Assembly: GCA_020161245.1 (NCBI GenBank)
Contig: JAIUOK010000010.1
Span: 1-64,000 of the forward strand
DNA from: Actinomycetota bacterium
GTDB taxonomy: Bacteria; Actinomycetota; Actinomycetes; S36-B12; CAIYMF01
Direction of reading: 5' to 3'
Length of the DNA: 64,000 bases
This document shows positions 40,484 through 64,000 of the stretch, in pieces. Each line of letters opens with the position of its first letter. Position 1 is the first letter of the stretch. The position numbers were made by a program, and so were the translations under genes. The notes beneath the pieces were generated by a model. That model worked only from the letters and a program-made list of their open reading frames with translations. It had not been told where the DNA came from and made no database searches.

Positions 40484-40825
40484 CGACGCCTCCCTCGGTG
40501 CCCCGGCTACCCGGCGGTAGCCACCGCTCCCATCCTGCCCCACCCGCGTCCCCGGAGCACGCCCCCGCCCCGGACCCGCGCGGTCCGCCGTTTCCGGGTG
40601 AAGGTGCCCCTCCTTGCGATAGAAGCAAGAAAAGCGCCCCAGGCTGTCCACAGCTCGCGGCTCGGCTCGAGGCCTTGTGGACAGCCTGGGGCGGAAAACT
40701 TGCTTCTATCGCAAGCGGGGGCACCCTCACCGTGAACCGGACCAGCGGCACGAGGGGGCCGCCGAACGAGCACGAGGCGGGATCCCCGGGGGGATCCCGC
40801 CTCGTCAGGCTGTGCGAAGCAGCAG
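40484..40825. other. 342-bp intergenic region with palindromic repeat A
   Basis: Apart from the 135-bp palindromic repeat (40597-40731) no gene or promoter is evident. It separates the epimerase gene (5' end) from the 3' end of the bS22 gene. Confidence 0.5.
40597..40731. repeat. 135-bp palindromic repeat, copy A
   Basis: Outer arms GGTGA-A-GGTGCCCC / GGGGGCACC-C-TCACC enclose CTTGCGATAGAAGCAAG and its complement, a short purine-rich mismatch (AAAAGC against GGAAAA) and an inner stem GCCCCAGGCTGTCCACA / TGTGGACAGCCTGGGGC with a loop near 40653-40675. A second copy lies at 61249-61373 in the opposite orientation. Confidence 0.85.
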
Positions 40826-54478: not shown

Positions 54479-55576
54479 GTGGCGGCCGAGAAGACCGACG
54501 TCGACGCTGCGCTGCGCGCGGCGATCGCCCAGGTGGCTCCCGGCACGGTGCTCCGCGACGGCCTCGAGCGCATCCTGCGCGGCCGCACCGGCGGTCTCGT
54601 CGTCCTCGGCCACGACCGCCAGGTCGAGGCGATGGCGTCCGGCGGCTTCTCCCTCGACGTCGAGTTCTCGGCGCAGCGCCTGCGCGAGCTGGCGAAGATG
54701 GACGGCGCGGTGATCTGCGACCGCGACGCCACCCGTCTGCTGCGCGCGGCCGTGCAGCTGCTGCCGGATCCCACCATCCCCACCGACGAGCAGGGCACGC
54801 GCCACCGCACCGCCGACCGCGTCTCCAAGAGCAGCGGCTTCCCGGTGGTCAGCGTCAGCAAGTCGATGAACACGATCGCGCTCTACGTCGCCGGACGCCG
54901 CTACGTGCTCGAGGACTCCGGCGCCATCCTCAGCCGCGCCAACCAGGCGCTGGCCACGCTCGAGCGCTACAAGATGCGCCTCGACGAGGTGAGCGGCACG
55001 CTCTCCGCCCTCGAGATCGAGGATCTCGTGACGGTCCGCGACGTCTGCTCGGTCGCGCAGCGCCTGGAGATGGTGCGCCGCATCGCGGCCGAGATCGCCG
55101 ACTACCTCGTCGAGCTCGGCACCGACGGCCGCCTCATGAGCCTGCAGCTCGACGAGCTGGTCGCCGGAGTCGAGACCGACCGCGAGCTAGTCGTCCGCGA
55201 CTACCTGCCGCCGTCGACGAGCGCCAAGAAGAGCCAGCGCGGCCTCGAGCAGGCCCTCACCGACCTCGATGCCCTGACGGCGACCGACCTGCTCGACCTC
55301 GCCAACGTGGCGCGGGCGATCGGCTTCGCGCAGGCACCCGACCAGCTCGACCAGGCGGTGAGCCCCCGCGGCTACCGCCTGCTCGCGCGGGTCCCCCGGC
55401 TCCCCGAGGCCGTGCTCGAGCGGCTCGTCTCCCACTTCGGCGGGCTGCAGCGCCTGCTGGCGGCGTCGATCGACGACCTGCAGGCCGTCGAGGGCGTCGG
55501 CGAGGCCCGGGCGCGATCGATCCGCGAGGGCCTGTCGCGCCTCGCCGAGTCGAGCATCCTCGAGCGGTACGTCTGA
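54479..55576 (+). CDS. disA: DNA integrity scanning diadenylate cyclase DisA
   Basis: DisA makes c-di-AMP and senses branched DNA. The 365-aa product has the cyclase motifs [18 protein letters not shown] (DGA) and [12 protein letters not shown] (RHR), a helical linker and a C-terminal helix-hairpin-helix DNA-binding domain ([19 protein letters not shown]). The GTG has a purine-rich GGGGGCAGCA site upstream. The radA-disA order is typical of actinobacteria. Confidence 0.95.
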
Positions 55577-55577
55577 C

Positions 55578-56135
55578 TCAGGACCGGGCTGCGGGCTCCG
55601 CCTGCACATCGTCGGCCGGCACCAGGCCGAAGGTCACGTCGCGCAGTCCGAGCAGCTTCTCCACCACTCCGCGGCGCGCGTCGTCGAACAGGGCTGTGGC
55701 CAGCGCGACGAGGACGAGCGCGACGCCGATGAGCAGGCCGCCGGAATCGTGCCGCACCGACATCACCGCGAGGACGACGCCGGACAGCAGAGCGGGGCGC
55801 GTCGCACGGCGCAGATAGCCCAGCTCGCGCCCGGCGGGGTCGACGACACGCAGCTCGGCCCACTTCCAGACCATGCCGCTGCCCGGGCCGGCGGTCACCA
55901 TCGCGATCGCGACGAGCCAGGCGACGCCGATCGCGACCCACGACGCCCAGCCGTCCCACGAGACGCCGAGCGGGTTGCTCGCATCACGATGCGCGGCCGC
56001 GGGCGACAGCACGAACATCATGCAGATGAGGATCGCCACGAAGGCGAACGAGAACACCGCCGCTGACAGCCCCCACGCGAACGCGATCGTGCCGCGCCCG
56101 GGGACGACCTGCCCCAGCCTGGTCGAACCGCTCAT
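55578..56135 (-). CDS. RDD-like integral membrane protein
   Basis: The 185-aa protein has about four hydrophobic helices (FAWGLSAAVFSFAFVAILIC, ASWVAIGVAWLVAIAMVTAG, ALLSGVVLAVMSV, LLIGVALVLVALATALF). Between and after them are polar stretches resembling RDD proteins (VVDPAGRELGYLRRATRPALL, LFDDARRGVVEKLLGL). Assignment to RDD is tentative. The ATG at 56135 has GGGGGAG seven bases upstream and is preferred over one ten codons earlier. It converges on disA with a single base between the stops. Confidence 0.6.
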   Translation of the reverse strand: MSGSTRLGQVVPGRGTIAFAWGLSAAVFSFAFVAILICMMFVLSPAAAHRDASNPLGVSWDGWASWVAIGVAWLVAIAMVTAGPGSGMVWKWAELRVVDPAGRELGYLRRATRPALLSGVVLAVMSVRHDSGGLLIGVALVLVALATALFDDARRGVVEKLLGLRDVTFGLVPADDVQAEPAARS

Positions 56136-56214
56136 GGCCGCACTCCCCCTCGAGATCCGTGCCATCAGAGTGGCATGTCCGCGCGGCGGCAGGCGGCGGA
56201 ACCGCCCGGAAGCC

Positions 56215-56766
56215 TCAGCCGGCGTCGCGGTCCGCCGACGGCAGATCCACCACGACGACGGCCTCGCCGCCCCCGACCGGCCGCACGACGCCACGCGCGT
56301 AGGCGGGCAGCACGGCCGCTGCCGCACCGGGCTCCGCCTCGAGCTCGCCGGGCCCGGTCACCGCGACGACGTGGTCGACGACGAGCCCGGCGTGGCGGCG
56401 CCACAGCGGCAGCAGCACATCGCCGTCGCCCTGGGGGTCGCGGCGCAGGTCGACGACCGGGACCGACCGGCCGTGCACGTCGACGAGGGCGAGAGCCCGC
56501 CCGAAGCCGGCCGAGTCGAGCACGGGCAGCCGGGTCAGCCGCGGCGAGCGCGCGATCTCGCGGACGTCGCCGATGGGCACCGCCATCGTGGTGCCATCGA
56601 CGGAGAACAGCACGTAGCCGGCATCGGACGCCGGGCCCGCGGCCTCGGCCGTGGCGGCGGACTGCGCCGTATCGACCGGCGCGGGCGGCTCGAGGTCGGC
56701 GGGTGCCGGGTCCTCAGCGGGCCGGCGCAGGGCGGCCGGCACCGGGGCGCTGGTGAACAAGCTCAT
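56215..56766 (-). CDS. cheW: CheW-like chemotaxis coupling protein
   Basis: The 183-aa protein has an Ala/Pro-rich N-terminal extension of about 50 residues before the CheW SH3-like core: YVLFSVDGTTMAVPIGDVREIARSPRLTRLP, FGRALALVDVHGRSVPVVDLRR, GLVVDHVVAVTG and a final ARGVVRPVGGGEAVVVVDL. It should link receptors to a CheA kinase, which is not in the window. It lies two bases after cheR in its direction. Confidence 0.85.
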   Translation of the reverse strand: MSLFTSAPVPAALRRPAEDPAPADLEPPAPVDTAQSAATAEAAGPASDAGYVLFSVDGTTMAVPIGDVREIARSPRLTRLPVLDSAGFGRALALVDVHGRSVPVVDLRRDPQGDGDVLLPLWRRHAGLVVDHVVAVTGPGELEAEPGAAAAVLPAYARGVVRPVGGGEAVVVVDLPSADRDAG

Positions 56767-56768
56767 GG

Positions 56769-58166
56769 TCAGACCGCCTCGGCGGCCCGCCGCTCGGCCT
56801 CGTCGGCCAGCCGGCGGCACAGCGCGACGAGCTGCTCGACGTCGCAGCCGTCGAGCAGGTCCTCGAGGTCGGCGGCGTCGGTCGCCGGCAGCGCGACCGC
56901 GGCGGCGCGGTACTGCGTCGCAGCACCGCGATGCTCCCCGCAGCGCGAGAGCGCGCCAGCGAGGGCGAACAGGGCGTGCCCCGCGTGCGGCGCGAGGTAG
57001 ACGGCGCGTCGTAGCACGGGGACGGAGGCGGCGTCGTCGCCGGCGTTCGCCAGCGCCTTGCCCTGCAGCACGTAGGCGTCGACCTCCAGCGGGCTGGCCG
57101 TCGCCGCCAGCCGTGCGAGCTTGGCCGCCTCGGCGTAGCGGGTCTGCGCCATGGCTTCGCGGGCGAGGCCGAGCAGCTCGTTGGCACGGTCAGGGTCGGG
57201 CAGCTCGTCGCCGGACAGCGCACGCCTGCGCGCGCTCGGCGGCGCCACGCGCGGCACGGGCAGTGGGCGCCGCGGGCGCTCGGGCTCGGGCTCCGGCTCG
57301 GGCAGGCGTCCGGCGGGGACGTCCTTGCGGTAGACGAACGCGTCGCCGAGGGTCACCAGCGTGAAATCGTCGGTGAGCTGCCACAGCGTCTCGGCGTGGC
57401 CGAGCATGAGGTAGCCGCCTGCGGCGAGCACCGAGTGGAACCTCCCGACGACCTCGCGGGTGGTGTCCTTGGCGAAGTAGATGGTGACGTTGCGGCACAC
57501 GACGAGGTCGACGTCGCCGGGGCCGAACGGCGGAGCCTCGGCGACGAGGTTGTGCAGGCGGGCGACGACGAGGCCGCGGGCCGCAGGTGCCACGACCGAC
57601 GCGCGGCCGGACCGCTCGAAGAACCGGGCCGCGCGCTCCTCGCTCACCAGCTGCAGCGACCGGCCCTCGTAGCGGGCCCGCTTGGTCGCGGCGACAGCCA
57701 CCGTCGACAGGTCCGTCGCCACGATCCGGATCTCGGGCGACTCCTGCAGCGAGTCGGCCACCTCGAGGGCGAGCATCGCCAGGGAGTACGGCTCCTCGCC
57801 GGTCGAGCAGCCGGCGCTCCAGATCGTCAGCGCCCGTCCGCGTGCGAGGGCGCGTCGCATCAGCTCGGGCAGGATGCGGTGGCGCAGCGCGTGCATCTGC
57901 GGCGGGTTGCGGAAGAACTGTGTCTCCGGGATGGTCACGGCGTCGAGCAGCCGCTGGCGCTCGTCGGCCCCCTCGGGCGAGCTGATCCGCGCGAGGTAGG
58001 CGCCGAGATCCGCGGCGCCCATGGCCGCGACCCGCTCCGCGACGATGCTGGCGAGCACCGGCCGGCGCGACGAGTCGAAGACGAGGCCCGCCGTGGTGGC
58101 GAGGTACTGCGCGATCGCCGCGTGCTCGGCGTCGGTGAGGTCGTGGGCCGGGGTCGAGACGGTCAT
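56769..58166 (-). CDS. cheR: CheR methyltransferase with C-terminal TPR region
   Basis: The 465-aa protein has an N-terminal CheR helical domain (VTIPETQFFRNPPQMHALR), a SAM-binding domain (LTIWSAGCSTGEEPYSLAML, CRNVTIYFAKDT, GGYLMLGHAETL), then a proline-rich linker and helical TPR-like repeats from about residue 345 (NELLGLAREAMAQTRYAEAAKLARLAA, AYLAPHAGHALFALAGALSRCGEHRGA). CheR-TPR fusions methylate receptor glutamates or tie into non-flagellar systems. The ATG at 58166 is one base after the cheB stop. Confidence 0.92.
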   Translation of the reverse strand: MTVSTPAHDLTDAEHAAIAQYLATTAGLVFDSSRRPVLASIVAERVAAMGAADLGAYLARISSPEGADERQRLLDAVTIPETQFFRNPPQMHALRHRILPELMRRALARGRALTIWSAGCSTGEEPYSLAMLALEVADSLQESPEIRIVATDLSTVAVAATKRARYEGRSLQLVSEERAARFFERSGRASVVAPAARGLVVARLHNLVAEAPPFGPGDVDLVVCRNVTIYFAKDTTREVVGRFHSVLAAGGYLMLGHAETLWQLTDDFTLVTLGDAFVYRKDVPAGRLPEPEPEPERPRRPLPVPRVAPPSARRRALSGDELPDPDRANELLGLAREAMAQTRYAEAAKLARLAATASPLEVDAYVLQGKALANAGDDAASVPVLRRAVYLAPHAGHALFALAGALSRCGEHRGAATQYRAAAVALPATDAADLEDLLDGCDVEQLVALCRRLADEAERRAAEAV

Positions 58167-58167
58167 G

Positions 58168-59253
58168 TCACACCGCCTCCGGCACGACGAGGCGCGCGAC
58201 CGCGTCGACGACAGCGGCAGGGATGTCGGGCAGCGCCAGCTCGACGCTCGCAGCATCGATCGACATCGCGGCAGCGGGCATGCCCCACACCGCGCTCGAC
58301 GACTCGTCCTGAGCGACGGTGAACGCGCCGGCGCGGCGCAGCGCCAGCAGGCCGGACGCCCCGTCGCGGCCCATCCCCGTCAGCAGCACGCCCACAGCGC
58401 GGTCGCCGCACACCTGCGCGACCGAGCGCATCGTGCGGTCGACCTCGGGGATGTGCAGCTGGTTGGGCCGGGGGTCCTCGATCTCGATGCGCAGCCCGGG
58501 CCCGAGCACCAGGTTGCCGTCGCTCGGTGCGACGACGACGTGGCCCGGGCGCAGCCGGTCGCCGTGCAGCGCCACGGACACGGGCAGGTCGACGACGCCG
58601 TCGAGCCAGCCGGCGAGGCCCTCGACGAAGCCGGTGGCCATGTGCTGGACGACGACCACGGGGGCCGGCAGCTCGACGGGCAGGCCGCCGAGCAGGCTGG
58701 CGAGGGCGGGCGGACCGCCGGTCGAGGCGCCGATGACGACGACGGGAGCGGTGCGCCGCGGGTCGCGGCGGACGGGCGGGGCCTCGCCGTCGAGGCCGCG
58801 CTCGCGCAGTCGGTCGCGGGGGTGGGTGATGACGCGGACGCGGGACGCGACGCCGAGGTGCCGGGCCAGCACGCGGGCGAACGGCGCGGGGCCCATGTGC
58901 TCGGCGGTCGGCGCGATGACGTCGACGGCGCCGGCGGCCAGGGCCAGGTCGGCGTTCTGCGACGCCGCCCCGGTGAGCACGATCGGCGTCGGGCAGCGGG
59001 CCATGAGCCGCTCGACCGTCTCGAGGCCGCCTGCCCCGAGCGCGAGGTCGAGCAGGACGGTGTCGGGCGCGAGCTCCACGACGGCGGTGACGGCCTCGTC
59101 GGCGCCGCGGGCCGTGCCGAGCACCTCGATGCCCGACAGCGACAGCAGATGGGCCAGGCGGGCGAGGCGCACATGCGTGCCGGCCACCACGACGACGGTC
59201 ACCGGCCGCGCCGGGACGGCAGGCACGCCGATGTCGGACGCCGTCGACGACAC
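58168..59253 (-). CDS. cheB: CheB methylesterase with degenerate receiver domain
   Basis: The 361-aa protein joins a receiver-like N-terminal domain to a CheB esterase. The esterase triad region is intact: VVVIGASTGGPPALASLL (Ser), VVVVQHMATGFVEGLA (His) and LLTGMGRDGASG (Asp). In the receiver the usual acidic pair is replaced (VVVVAGTHVRLARL) and the switch lysine is missing (VDVIAPTAEH), while the phospho-acceptor-type Asp in LLDLAL remains. Phosphorylation control is therefore doubtful. The GTG at 59253 with GGGAGG upstream is preferred over one ten codons earlier. Confidence 0.9.
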   Translation of the reverse strand: MSSTASDIGVPAVPARPVTVVVVAGTHVRLARLAHLLSLSGIEVLGTARGADEAVTAVVELAPDTVLLDLALGAGGLETVERLMARCPTPIVLTGAASQNADLALAAGAVDVIAPTAEHMGPAPFARVLARHLGVASRVRVITHPRDRLRERGLDGEAPPVRRDPRRTAPVVVIGASTGGPPALASLLGGLPVELPAPVVVVQHMATGFVEGLAGWLDGVVDLPVSVALHGDRLRPGHVVVAPSDGNLVLGPGLRIEIEDPRPNQLHIPEVDRTMRSVAQVCGDRAVGVLLTGMGRDGASGLLALRRAGAFTVAQDESSSAVWGMPAAAMSIDAASVELALPDIPAAVVDAVARLVVPEAV

Positions 59254-59381
59254 GCAGCCCTCCCAGGGTGTCCCTGCGGGCACGGCGGCGCCGGACCCGC
59301 TCCTACCCCAGGGATGTCGTCACGACCGCCGGGTTCCTTGACCCGTTCGAGCGACCCTGTTCCGGTGGGTCGCCGGCCCCG

Positions 59382-59630
59382 TCAGCGGCGGTGGCGGGCG
59401 GCCATCACGCCGCCGACCGAGCGCCACGACATCGCGGAGAACGCCGACGCGGCCGACAGCGCCGAGCACACGCTCGCGAACGACCCCACCGAGAACAGCG
59501 ACAGGGCGCTGCCCAGGCTGCCGATCGAGAGCACCGAGCCGGTCGAGCCGATCGACAGGACCGAGCCGGTCGAGGCGATCGAGAGGATCGAGCGCTCGGA
59601 GCGCCACGACAGGCGCGACGTCGCGGGCAT
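59382..59630 (-). CDS. Small Ser-rich protein with 9-residue LSIGS repeats
   Basis: The 82-aa product has basic ends (SRLSWRSERS and AARHRR) around about five tandem nonapeptides of the form S-x-G-S-x-L-S-I/L-x: SIASTGSVLSIGSTG, SVLSIGSLG, SALSLFSVG, SFASVCSAL. The regular spacing of Ser, Gly and aliphatic residues suggests a beta-solenoid-like or self-associating peptide. The ATG overlaps the stop of the upstream membrane protein as TGATG, so it is translated with it. No named family is recognised. Confidence 0.65.
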   Translation of the reverse strand: MPATSRLSWRSERSILSIASTGSVLSIGSTGSVLSIGSLGSALSLFSVGSFASVCSALSAASAFSAMSWRSVGGVMAARHRR

Positions 59631-60295
59631 CAGCCGGCCGCCGTCAGGGAGAAGACCGCGGGCTCGCTCACGACCTCGCCGTTGCGGCCGGTGAGCTTGT
59701 AGGTGCCGGCCTGGGCCAGCGGCTGGTCGGCCGGACAGTTCTTGGCCGACAGCCGGCCCAGCCACGTGACGGACACCGAGTACGACTGCTGCGGCTTGAG
59801 GGTGACGACCTGCGGGTCGCCCCCGGGGTTGCAGTCGTCGGACGACCACACCTGGGTGCTCCCCGAGGTGATCACCAGCTCGTTCTTCGCCGCCCCGATG
59901 TCGCGCCGGCACGCGTTGTCGGAGGTGTTCTGGATGCGCATGCGCAGGCGCGGCGTCGCGCCGACCTGGTAGGTGGCGGCGTCCGTGGACGCGGTCACCG
60001 TGATCTGGGAGTCCTTGCACAGCGGGGTGCCGCCCGACGACGACGAGGCCGACTTCGACGGCGAGGCCGAGCCGGTGGTGGTGGGCTCCGGCGTCCCGGA
60101 CTTCGACGTCGAGGCCGACGGCGACGCGGTGGGCGAGGTGGAGGGCTCCGGCGCTGCGGTGCCGCTGCCCCCGCCGTTGAAGAAGGCCAGCTTGATCCCC
60201 ACGATGAGTGCGACGACCACCGCGAGCACGATGAGACGGCGCAGCCAGTAGACGCCCGGCGTCTGGGGGCCCACCGGGTGCAGCAGGGAGCTCAC
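59630..60295 (-). CDS. Membrane-anchored protein with Ser/Thr/Pro linker and extracytoplasmic beta domain
   Basis: The 221-aa product has a single N-terminal helix (WLRRLIVLAVVVALIVGIKLAFF), a low-complexity linker of about 50 residues ([28 protein letters not shown]) and a C-terminal domain of about 130 residues with four cysteines (PLCKDS, NACRRD, DDCNPG, KNCPAD). That domain has a beta-sandwich-like pattern (RLRMRIQNTSDNAC, QSYSVSVTWLG) resembling BsuPI/DUF4232-type folds. The role is unknown. It is divergent from mutY and coupled to the repeat protein downstream. Confidence 0.7.
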   Translation of the reverse strand: MSSLLHPVGPQTPGVYWLRRLIVLAVVVALIVGIKLAFFNGGGSGTAAPEPSTSPTASPSASTSKSGTPEPTTTGSASPSKSASSSSGGTPLCKDSQITVTASTDAATYQVGATPRLRMRIQNTSDNACRRDIGAAKNELVITSGSTQVWSSDDCNPGGDPQVVTLKPQQSYSVSVTWLGRLSAKNCPADQPLAQAGTYKLTGRNGEVVSEPAVFSLTAAG

Positions 60296-60302
60296 GGTGC
60301 CG

Positions 60303-60308
60303 ACGCTA
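60303..60308 (-). promoter_or_regulatory. -10 box of membrane-anchored protein gene (leaderless)
   Basis: Minus-strand TAGCGT ends seven bases before the GTG at 60295. Confidence 0.45.
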
Positions 60309-60356
60309 CCGGGCCGGGGTGCGCCGCCGCGGGCAGGTGCGAGGATGCGGGACGTC

Positions 60357-61253
60357 ATGCCGTCGTCGCCGCTGCACGCACCGCTCCTCGCGTGGTACTC
60401 CCGGACTGCCCGCGACCTGCCCTGGCGGCGTCCCGATCGCACGCCGTGGGGCGTGCTGGTCAGCGAGGTGATGCTGCAGCAGACGCCCGTCGACCGCGTC
60501 GTGCCGGCGTGGGAGGCGTGGATCGCGCGCTGGCCCGCCCCGGCGCCCCTGGCGGCCGAGCCACCGGGCGAGGCGGTGCGGATGTGGGGCCGCCTGGGCT
60601 ACCCGCGCCGGGCCCTGCGGCTGCACGCCGCCGCCGTGGCCTGCACCGAGCGCTTCGACGGCGAGGTGCCGTCGTCGGAGGCCGACCTGCGCTCGCTGCC
60701 GGGGGTCGGCGACTACACCGCGGCCGCGGTGCGGGCATTCGCGTTCGGGCAGCGCGCCGTCGTCCTCGACACCAATGTGCGACGGGTGCTGGCGCGGCTG
60801 CTCGAGGGGGCCGAGCATCCACGGCCGTCGATCACCGTCGGCGAGCGCGCGCTCGCCGAGTCGGCGCTGCCGGATCTCGACGGCGAGGCCGCCGTCTGGT
60901 CGGTGGCCACGATGGAGCTCGGCGCCCTGGTGTGCACCGCGTCGTCGCCGTCCTGCCACGCCTGCCCGGTGGAGGCCCAGTGCACGTGGGTGGCGCTGGG
61001 GCGGCCGGCGTACGACGGGCCGGCGCGGCCGGTGCAGCGCTTCGCCGGGACGGACCGGCAGGTGCGCGGGCTGCTCATGGCCGTGCTGCGCGAGGCCCAC
61101 GGCCCCGTGGCCAAGGCCGCCCTCGACGCCGTGTGGGACGACGCCGTCCAGCGCGAGTGCGCCCTCGACGGCCTCGTCGCCGACGGCCTCGTGGAGCCGC
61201 TCCCCCGCCACCGCTACCGCCTCCCCGGTGTCGGTGCCGGCCATGACGGGTGA
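60357..61253 (+). CDS. mutY: A/G-specific adenine glycosylase
   Basis: It removes adenine mispaired with 8-oxoguanine. The 298-aa product has LPWRRPDRTPWGVLVSEVMLQQT, the helix-hairpin-helix LPGVGDYTAAAVRAFAFG, VVLDTNVRRVLARL and the [4Fe-4S] loop CTASSPSCHACPVEAQC (C-x6-C-x2-C-x5-C). The C-terminal MutT-like domain is largely lost, replaced by a short winged-helix-like tail, as in many actinobacteria. ATG 60357 is chosen; an ATG four codons upstream is possible. The TGA stop lies in the end of repeat B (GGTGAAGGG). Confidence 0.93.
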   Translation: MPSSPLHAPLLAWYSRTARDLPWRRPDRTPWGVLVSEVMLQQTPVDRVVPAWEAWIARWPAPAPLAAEPPGEAVRMWGRLGYPRRALRLHAAAVACTERFDGEVPSSEADLRSLPGVGDYTAAAVRAFAFGQRAVVLDTNVRRVLARLLEGAEHPRPSITVGERALAESALPDLDGEAAVWSVATMELGALVCTASSPSCHACPVEAQCTWVALGRPAYDGPARPVQRFAGTDRQVRGLLMAVLREAHGPVAKAALDAVWDDAVQRECALDGLVADGLVEPLPRHRYRLPGVGAGHDG

Positions 61254-61373
61254 AGGGCCCCCTGCTTGCGATAGGAGCAAGTTTCCCGCCCCAGGCTGTC
61301 CACACCCGCCGAGGTGTGTGGACAGCCTGGGGCGCTTTTCTTGCTTCTATCGCAAGCGTCGCTGGGCCCCCTC
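61249..61373. repeat. 125-bp palindromic repeat, copy B
   Basis: It contains CTTGCGATAGGAGCAAG and CTTGCTTCTATCGCAAG around GCCCCAGGCTGTCCACAC / GTGTGGACAGCCTGGGGC, the same architecture as copy A at 40597. The mismatched spacers (TTTCCC left, GCTTTT right) show it is inverted relative to copy A. Its left end supplies the mutY stop. Confidence 0.85.
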
Positions 61374-61425
61374 TGGTCGCGGCGGAGGAACGACGCCGCG
61401 GCCAGTAGGTGACTTCACCGCGAAC

Positions 61426-61465
61426 GGCGAGGGCCGGACCCCGGGATCGGGGTCCGGCCCTCGCC
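61426..61465 (-). terminator. clpC terminator hairpin
   Basis: A perfect 17-bp stem (first arm GGCGAGGGCCGGACCCC) closes a 6-nt GGGATC loop, 14 nt beyond the clpC stop. It could also stop readthrough from mutY. Confidence 0.8.
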
Positions 61466-61479
61466 GGTGAAGCGCGTGC

Positions 61480-64000
<2,521 letters not shown>

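Follow-up and report, generated by a model that had tools for sequence, protein, structure and literature searches.

The window, by which we mean the whole 64,000-nucleotide stretch of the actinobacterial contig that was analysed, carries on its minus strand a real protein-coding gene under selection, whose 82-residue product is built on Sxx triplets, with a serine at every third residue. The product belongs to a widespread, conserved actinobacterial family (Sxx proteins), which apparently has been undescribed so far. Motif-string searches of the open-access literature returned no paper with these motifs or with this serine-every-third-residue pattern; the family may have been published under another name.

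The translation of the minus-strand frame 59630..59382 is MPATSRLSWRSERSILSIASTGSVLSIGSTGSVLSIGSLGSALSLFSVGSFASVCSALSAASAFSAMSWRSVGGVMAARHRR. It agrees exactly with the frame reported in the first-pass annotation, and the features of the locus are collected in Table 1. A single triplet register holds all 23 serines of the protein. When the residues of the protein were shuffled 100,000 times, no Sxx run was longer than 11, compared with the 23 observed; the earlier claim that the spacing is too regular for chance was thus borne out, and more strongly than it had been made. A nonapeptide super-repeat with the consensus SVLSIGSVG overlies the triplets. At the DNA level, the array was detectable as a 27-bp repeat only over 59520-59593, which indicates that most copies are old in DNA and have been kept as protein. 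The basic caps described earlier were also recognised, and the C-terminal tail of the window protein is basic only, without a hydrophobic segment. The protein has the features by which we define the family, namely at least ~20 Sxx triplets, a nonapeptide unit, an uncharged core, and basic borders.

Table 1. Features of the Sxx locus in the window.
Feature	Coordinates	Strand	Basis or remark
82-aa Sxx-repeat miniprotein gene	59382..59630	minus	translation, triplet register, homologues, selection
23 Sxx triplets (residues 5-71), no breaks	59418..59618	minus	triplet-run analysis
Best-kept 27-bp (nonapeptide) tandem repeats, 2.7 copies	59520..59593	minus	Tandem Repeats Finder, score 120
TGATG stop/start overlap with upstream gene	59628..59632	minus	sequence; upstream comparison
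Upstream gene: one TM segment and extracytoplasmic domain	59630..60295	minus	no Pfam family; core gene of order

The antisense frames of Sxx genes are frequently open and encode acidic or proline-rich repeats, which would suit an explanation without any gene: the frame could be an antisense shadow, could be open by chance in GC-rich sequence, or could stem from a repeat at the DNA level. We regard this explanation as extremely improbable. A switch between TCN and AGY serine codons takes two substitutions. Across such switches, 22 serine columns of the family retained Ser (TCN codons, 1176; AGY codons, 136), and in column S53 AGY (AGC) prevails; the switches would disrupt an antisense pattern. 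The dN/dS values of 16 close pairs ranged from 0.10 to 0.53, indicative of purifying selection, and in 15 of these pairs the pN/pS of the sense frame was below that of all three antisense frames. Taken together, the retained serines, the dN/dS values, and the comparison of sense with antisense pN/pS rule out an antisense or DNA-only reading, and the promoter hexamer at a locked distance from the start codon (see below) also speaks against the absence of a gene. The first-pass annotation had proposed to look for homologues with a conserved frame in relatives and for selection at the protein level; both were found.

Homologues with a conserved frame were present in at least 26 of 60 relatives. 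In the window's order, they occurred in at least 43 of 85 genomes, spanning 20 of 30 genera, and ~37 of 396 genomes sampled phylum-wide contained one, including weak matches at the lower end; the counts from all genome searches are approximate. A scan of a named collection, run with a consensus-like query, yielded at least 80 Sxx loci (L061-L140), distributed over Streptomyces, Kitasatospora, Nocardia, Rhodococcus, Frankia, Modestobacter, Kribbella, Nocardioides, Terrabacter, Sinomonas, and Cellulomonas, as well as actinobacterial MAGs, Acidimicrobiales among them. The gene is usually present in one copy per genome.

Members of the family share a common layout. The N-terminal cap is short, basic, and often contains Trp (S[RK]WS or SLWS). 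It is followed by two to six nonapeptides of the consensus S[VIA]LS[IV]GS[VI]G, most commonly SVLSIGSVG (110 times) and SALSVGSIG (36 times), and then by a conserved C-terminal Sxx module that ends near SWRS, so that Trp and basic residues lie near both ends of the repeat. The serine recurs every third residue for up to ~30 triplets. Among 81 members, non-serine residues had an identity of 0.44 when compared at lag 9 and of 0.36 when compared at lag 18; for lags that are multiples of three but not of nine, the identity was 0.15-0.20 (0.16-0.20 over lags 3, 6, 12, and 15). The 9-residue unit of the first-pass annotation therefore stands, although Sxx triplets grouped in threes describe the window protein better than a count of about five nonapeptides. 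The distance between the N- and C-terminal landmarks was a multiple of 9 (36, 45, 54, 63 or 72 residues) in 70 of the 81 members, a count inflated by kinship among Streptomyces, and length differences between members come mainly in 9-residue steps. The core consists of 33% S and 16% G, with the remainder chiefly L, V, A, and I; charge and proline are nearly absent (Asp, 0.6%). The median length of the longest stretch without charge is 57 residues. The residue following Ser is most frequently V or I, and glycine is present in two of three triplets.

The C-terminal ends are more variable. Many members, those of Streptomyces foremost, have an extra hydrophobic segment after the basic residues, which possibly serves as an N-in tail anchor; 13 of the 81 members passed a strict threshold for such a tail, based on the unweighted insertion sum. 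In the Nocardia/Rhodococcus branch, the hydrophobic tail is replaced by a conserved acidic one (EPDLR...), terminating in CHCQT in most Nocardia members. Ten loci with the acidic tail (L078, L090, L101, L112, L119, L120, L122, L127, L128, L140) share one gene context.

We also analysed the region in front of the start codon. In 49 of the 74 members that start with ATG, a hexamer [TC]A...T was located exactly at positions -12 to -7, and no other hexamer offset exceeded 8 members. A Shine-Dalgarno-like sequence preceded only 2 of the 74 Sxx genes, vs 99 of 343 neighbouring ORFs. A -10 hexamer placed 6 nt before ATG, together with the near absence of Shine-Dalgarno sequences, is characteristic of a leaderless mRNA, with the 5′ end predicted at the A of ATG, and indicates that the Sxx gene normally has its own promoter. 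Such a promoter is typical of the family and not required for membership; the usual -10 hexamer was not found upstream of the window gene.

The window gene overlaps the stop codon of the gene in front of it, as the first-pass annotation had noted. In a second genome of the same genus (G001), the Sxx gene has a GTG start two bases past the stop of the same upstream gene. The upstream membrane protein was found in 21 of the 21 genomes searched, and the Sxx gene lay directly behind it in 2 of 20 loci, i.e. the window and G001. The coupling is therefore local and provides no evidence of a functional pair. Functional coupling to this extracytoplasmic protein was accordingly rejected; the overlap itself was confirmed, but not the importance attached to it.

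The search for other partners gave a similar picture. When neighbours within 8 kb were clustered, only lineage-specific contexts emerged, and the 130 immediate neighbours of Sxx genes contained 136 Pfam families. The most frequent of these, the thioester domain TED (15 neighbours), came from Streptomyces loci, and Nocardia and Rhodococcus had a separate context in common. Clustering and the Pfam scan revealed no universal neighbour, and a conserved operon partner was rejected. CheB adjoins the Sxx gene in the window and in G001, and in G011 a paralogue lies next to a CheB-like gene; across loci, the link to the downstream chemotaxis genes formed no general pattern and was likewise dismissed.

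Several observations on gene context are recorded here in their own right. In the window, 54479-63942 contains disA and genes for an RDD protein, CheW-like, CheR, and CheB proteins, the Sxx protein, and the TM protein, along with mutY and clpC; CheW, CheR, and ClpC were named by reading the sequences, without a family search. The grouping disA-mutY-clpC is the usual actinobacterial neighbourhood, and the chemotaxis genes of the window sit inside it. A palindromic element lies between mutY and clpC (61264-61357; also 40613-40730), with 42-nt arms that are 86% complementary and a 10-nt loop. It has ~40 copies in the window genome (82 matches on both strands) and none in 11 relatives, which makes it a genome-specific, expanded REP/MITE-like repeat. 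Similar NAD-binding proteins of ~372 residues are encoded beside the Sxx gene in Intrasporangiaceae (L129:6680-7798) and Modestobacter (L095:8608-9729); these loci belong to distant families, and their contexts differ apart from the NAD-binding protein.

Searches of Pfam, PHROG, PADLOC, and the PDB revealed no fitting family, and none of the NCBIfam models fitted either, in line with the first-pass annotation, which knew of no named family for the miniprotein. The best PDB profile matches were to GSTGST linker sequence, and a solved relative was not found. A role as a defence system was dropped for lack of a PADLOC match. A tblastn search of plasmids and phages returned zero matches, a result that is uninformative owing to the low-complexity masking of BLAST. 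Phage origin was rejected as well, as the sole viral match was a collagen-like tail protein. The repeats of such tails (e.g. locus L060) resemble Sxx proteins in their triplets rich in S, G, and I, but they are glycine-based GSx repeats in proteins of 650-950 residues, without the Trp/Arg-bordered module. The RTX nonapeptide beta-roll (PF00353) is likewise a 9-residue unit of variable copy number; PF00353 was unmatched in Pfam searches of the window protein and 61 members, the near absence of Asp leaves the Sxx core without the calcium-site motif (GGxGxDxLx), and no large secreted protein with Sxx repeats was seen, in contrast to RTX. Bactofilins (PF04519) are small, cytoplasmic, membrane-associated, and self-assemble through repeats, and can serve as an analogy only: a Pfam search of the 61 members with E values of up to 1 did not return PF04519, and Sxx proteins have no confident solenoid model. 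Serine-rich repeat adhesins share the serine-rich repeats, whereas Sxx genes are single and small, and encode cytoplasmic-type products with hydrophobic repeats, in which neither a signal peptide nor a sortase motif was seen by inspection of the sequences.

The closest profile was that of HxsA4 (NCBIfam NF038313), a His-Xaa-Ser repeat protein whose name likewise implies triplets with Ser as each third residue. It weakly matched 58 of the 61 members (best E 2.5e-5), and the window protein reached 15.8 of the 55 bits that the cut-off requires. HxsA4 was above the cut-off in none of 149 phylum genomes, and HxsB (TIGR03978) in none of 30 genomes. Sxx proteins differ from HxsA4 in having neither the His-Xaa-Ser motif nor adjacent radical-SAM partners. 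We must also note a radical-SAM-like protein on another contig (G000:C36:20231-20716), whose HxsB score of ~75 bits is well below the cut-off; similar proteins were found in G001, G004, G010, G013, and G028.

As for the product, we tentatively favour a cytoplasmic, membrane-associated, self-assembling repeat protein of stacked nonapeptides. The product would be cytoplasmic, as no signal peptide is visible, and would be held at the inner face of the membrane via its basic ends and, where present, the tail anchor; for the window protein and other members without a C-terminal tail, the membrane attachment is putative. The stacked nonapeptides would self-associate into a small solenoid or a cross-beta-like oligomer serving as a structural element. 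In the window species, the gene would have lost its own promoter, and its translation would be coupled to the gene in front. The lag-9 periodicity and the multiple-of-9 landmark distances fit the stacking of 9-residue units, V or I after Ser favours beta structure, and the combination of beta-branched residues, glycine, 9-residue indels, and the lack of charge and proline favours self-association. Other points weigh against stacked nonapeptides. AlphaFold2, at low confidence, leaned towards a helix rather than a solenoid: with 61 homologues, the window protein was modelled at a pLDDT of 52.8, with a weak helix over residues 33-81 and no solenoid, and a single Streptomyces sequence gave 47.5. 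Moreover, the 9-residue indels could also arise by slippage of a 27-bp DNA repeat. Since the AlphaFold2 models are not confident, they speak neither for nor against the beta-solenoid or membrane-associated assembly suggested in the first-pass annotation, and the structural claim rests on sequence logic.

The main rival to stacked nonapeptides is a membrane-inserted, serine-striped oligomer, which we consider unlikely. The uncharged Ser/Gly/aliphatic core would insert either in hairpin form or as 3-10-like helices that carry a stripe of serines; it would oligomerise, perhaps into a pore. The long uncharged stretch, the Trp and basic residues flanking the repeat at both ends, and the helical leaning of AlphaFold2 in the C-terminal half are consistent with insertion, and a period of three would place the serines on a single face of a 3-10 helix. 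However, with a third of its residues Ser and a sixth Gly, the core has an insertion sum of ~+4 kcal/mol (median; unweighted, 19 residues), and the separate, more hydrophobic C-terminal segment of several lineages would be odd if the core already spanned the membrane. The low pLDDT of both models and the low-complexity composition could instead indicate an intrinsically disordered protein without a fixed fold, acting in condensation or as a linker. Yet conservation covers hydrophobic positions and not serine alone, length changes mostly by 9 residues, and the exclusion of charge and proline sets the sequences apart from typical disordered linkers; we find disorder distinctly improbable. It is very unlikely that Sxx proteins are RiPP precursors of the His-Xaa-Ser or TVGG type, with repeats that a radical-SAM or lanthipeptide-type enzyme would modify. 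Their repeated Ser motifs and the weak HxsA4 match would agree with such a role, and TVGG-repeat precursors, in which successive valines are modified, provide a precedent for repeat modification (PMC9062424). Nevertheless, the TVGG precursor shares one gene cluster with its enzymes (PMC9062424), whereas no RiPP maturase occurred among the recurrent neighbour families of Sxx genes; the HxsA4 score and the HxsB searches stayed below their cut-offs, and a conserved leader/core split is absent.

In broader terms, it is quite possible that Sxx nonapeptides, in a fold as yet unknown, form polymers or pores at the membrane, as products of an autonomous, leaderless gene without fixed partners. A common and strongly conserved gene of Streptomyces, Nocardia, and other actinobacteria has gone unrecognised by the family libraries searched. 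As it is usually single-copy, short, and promoter-bearing, and occurs in genera amenable to genetics, it should be straightforward to delete or tag. The regularity of the repeat fits no assignable fold, and the structure of an Sxx protein could therefore reveal a new repeat architecture.
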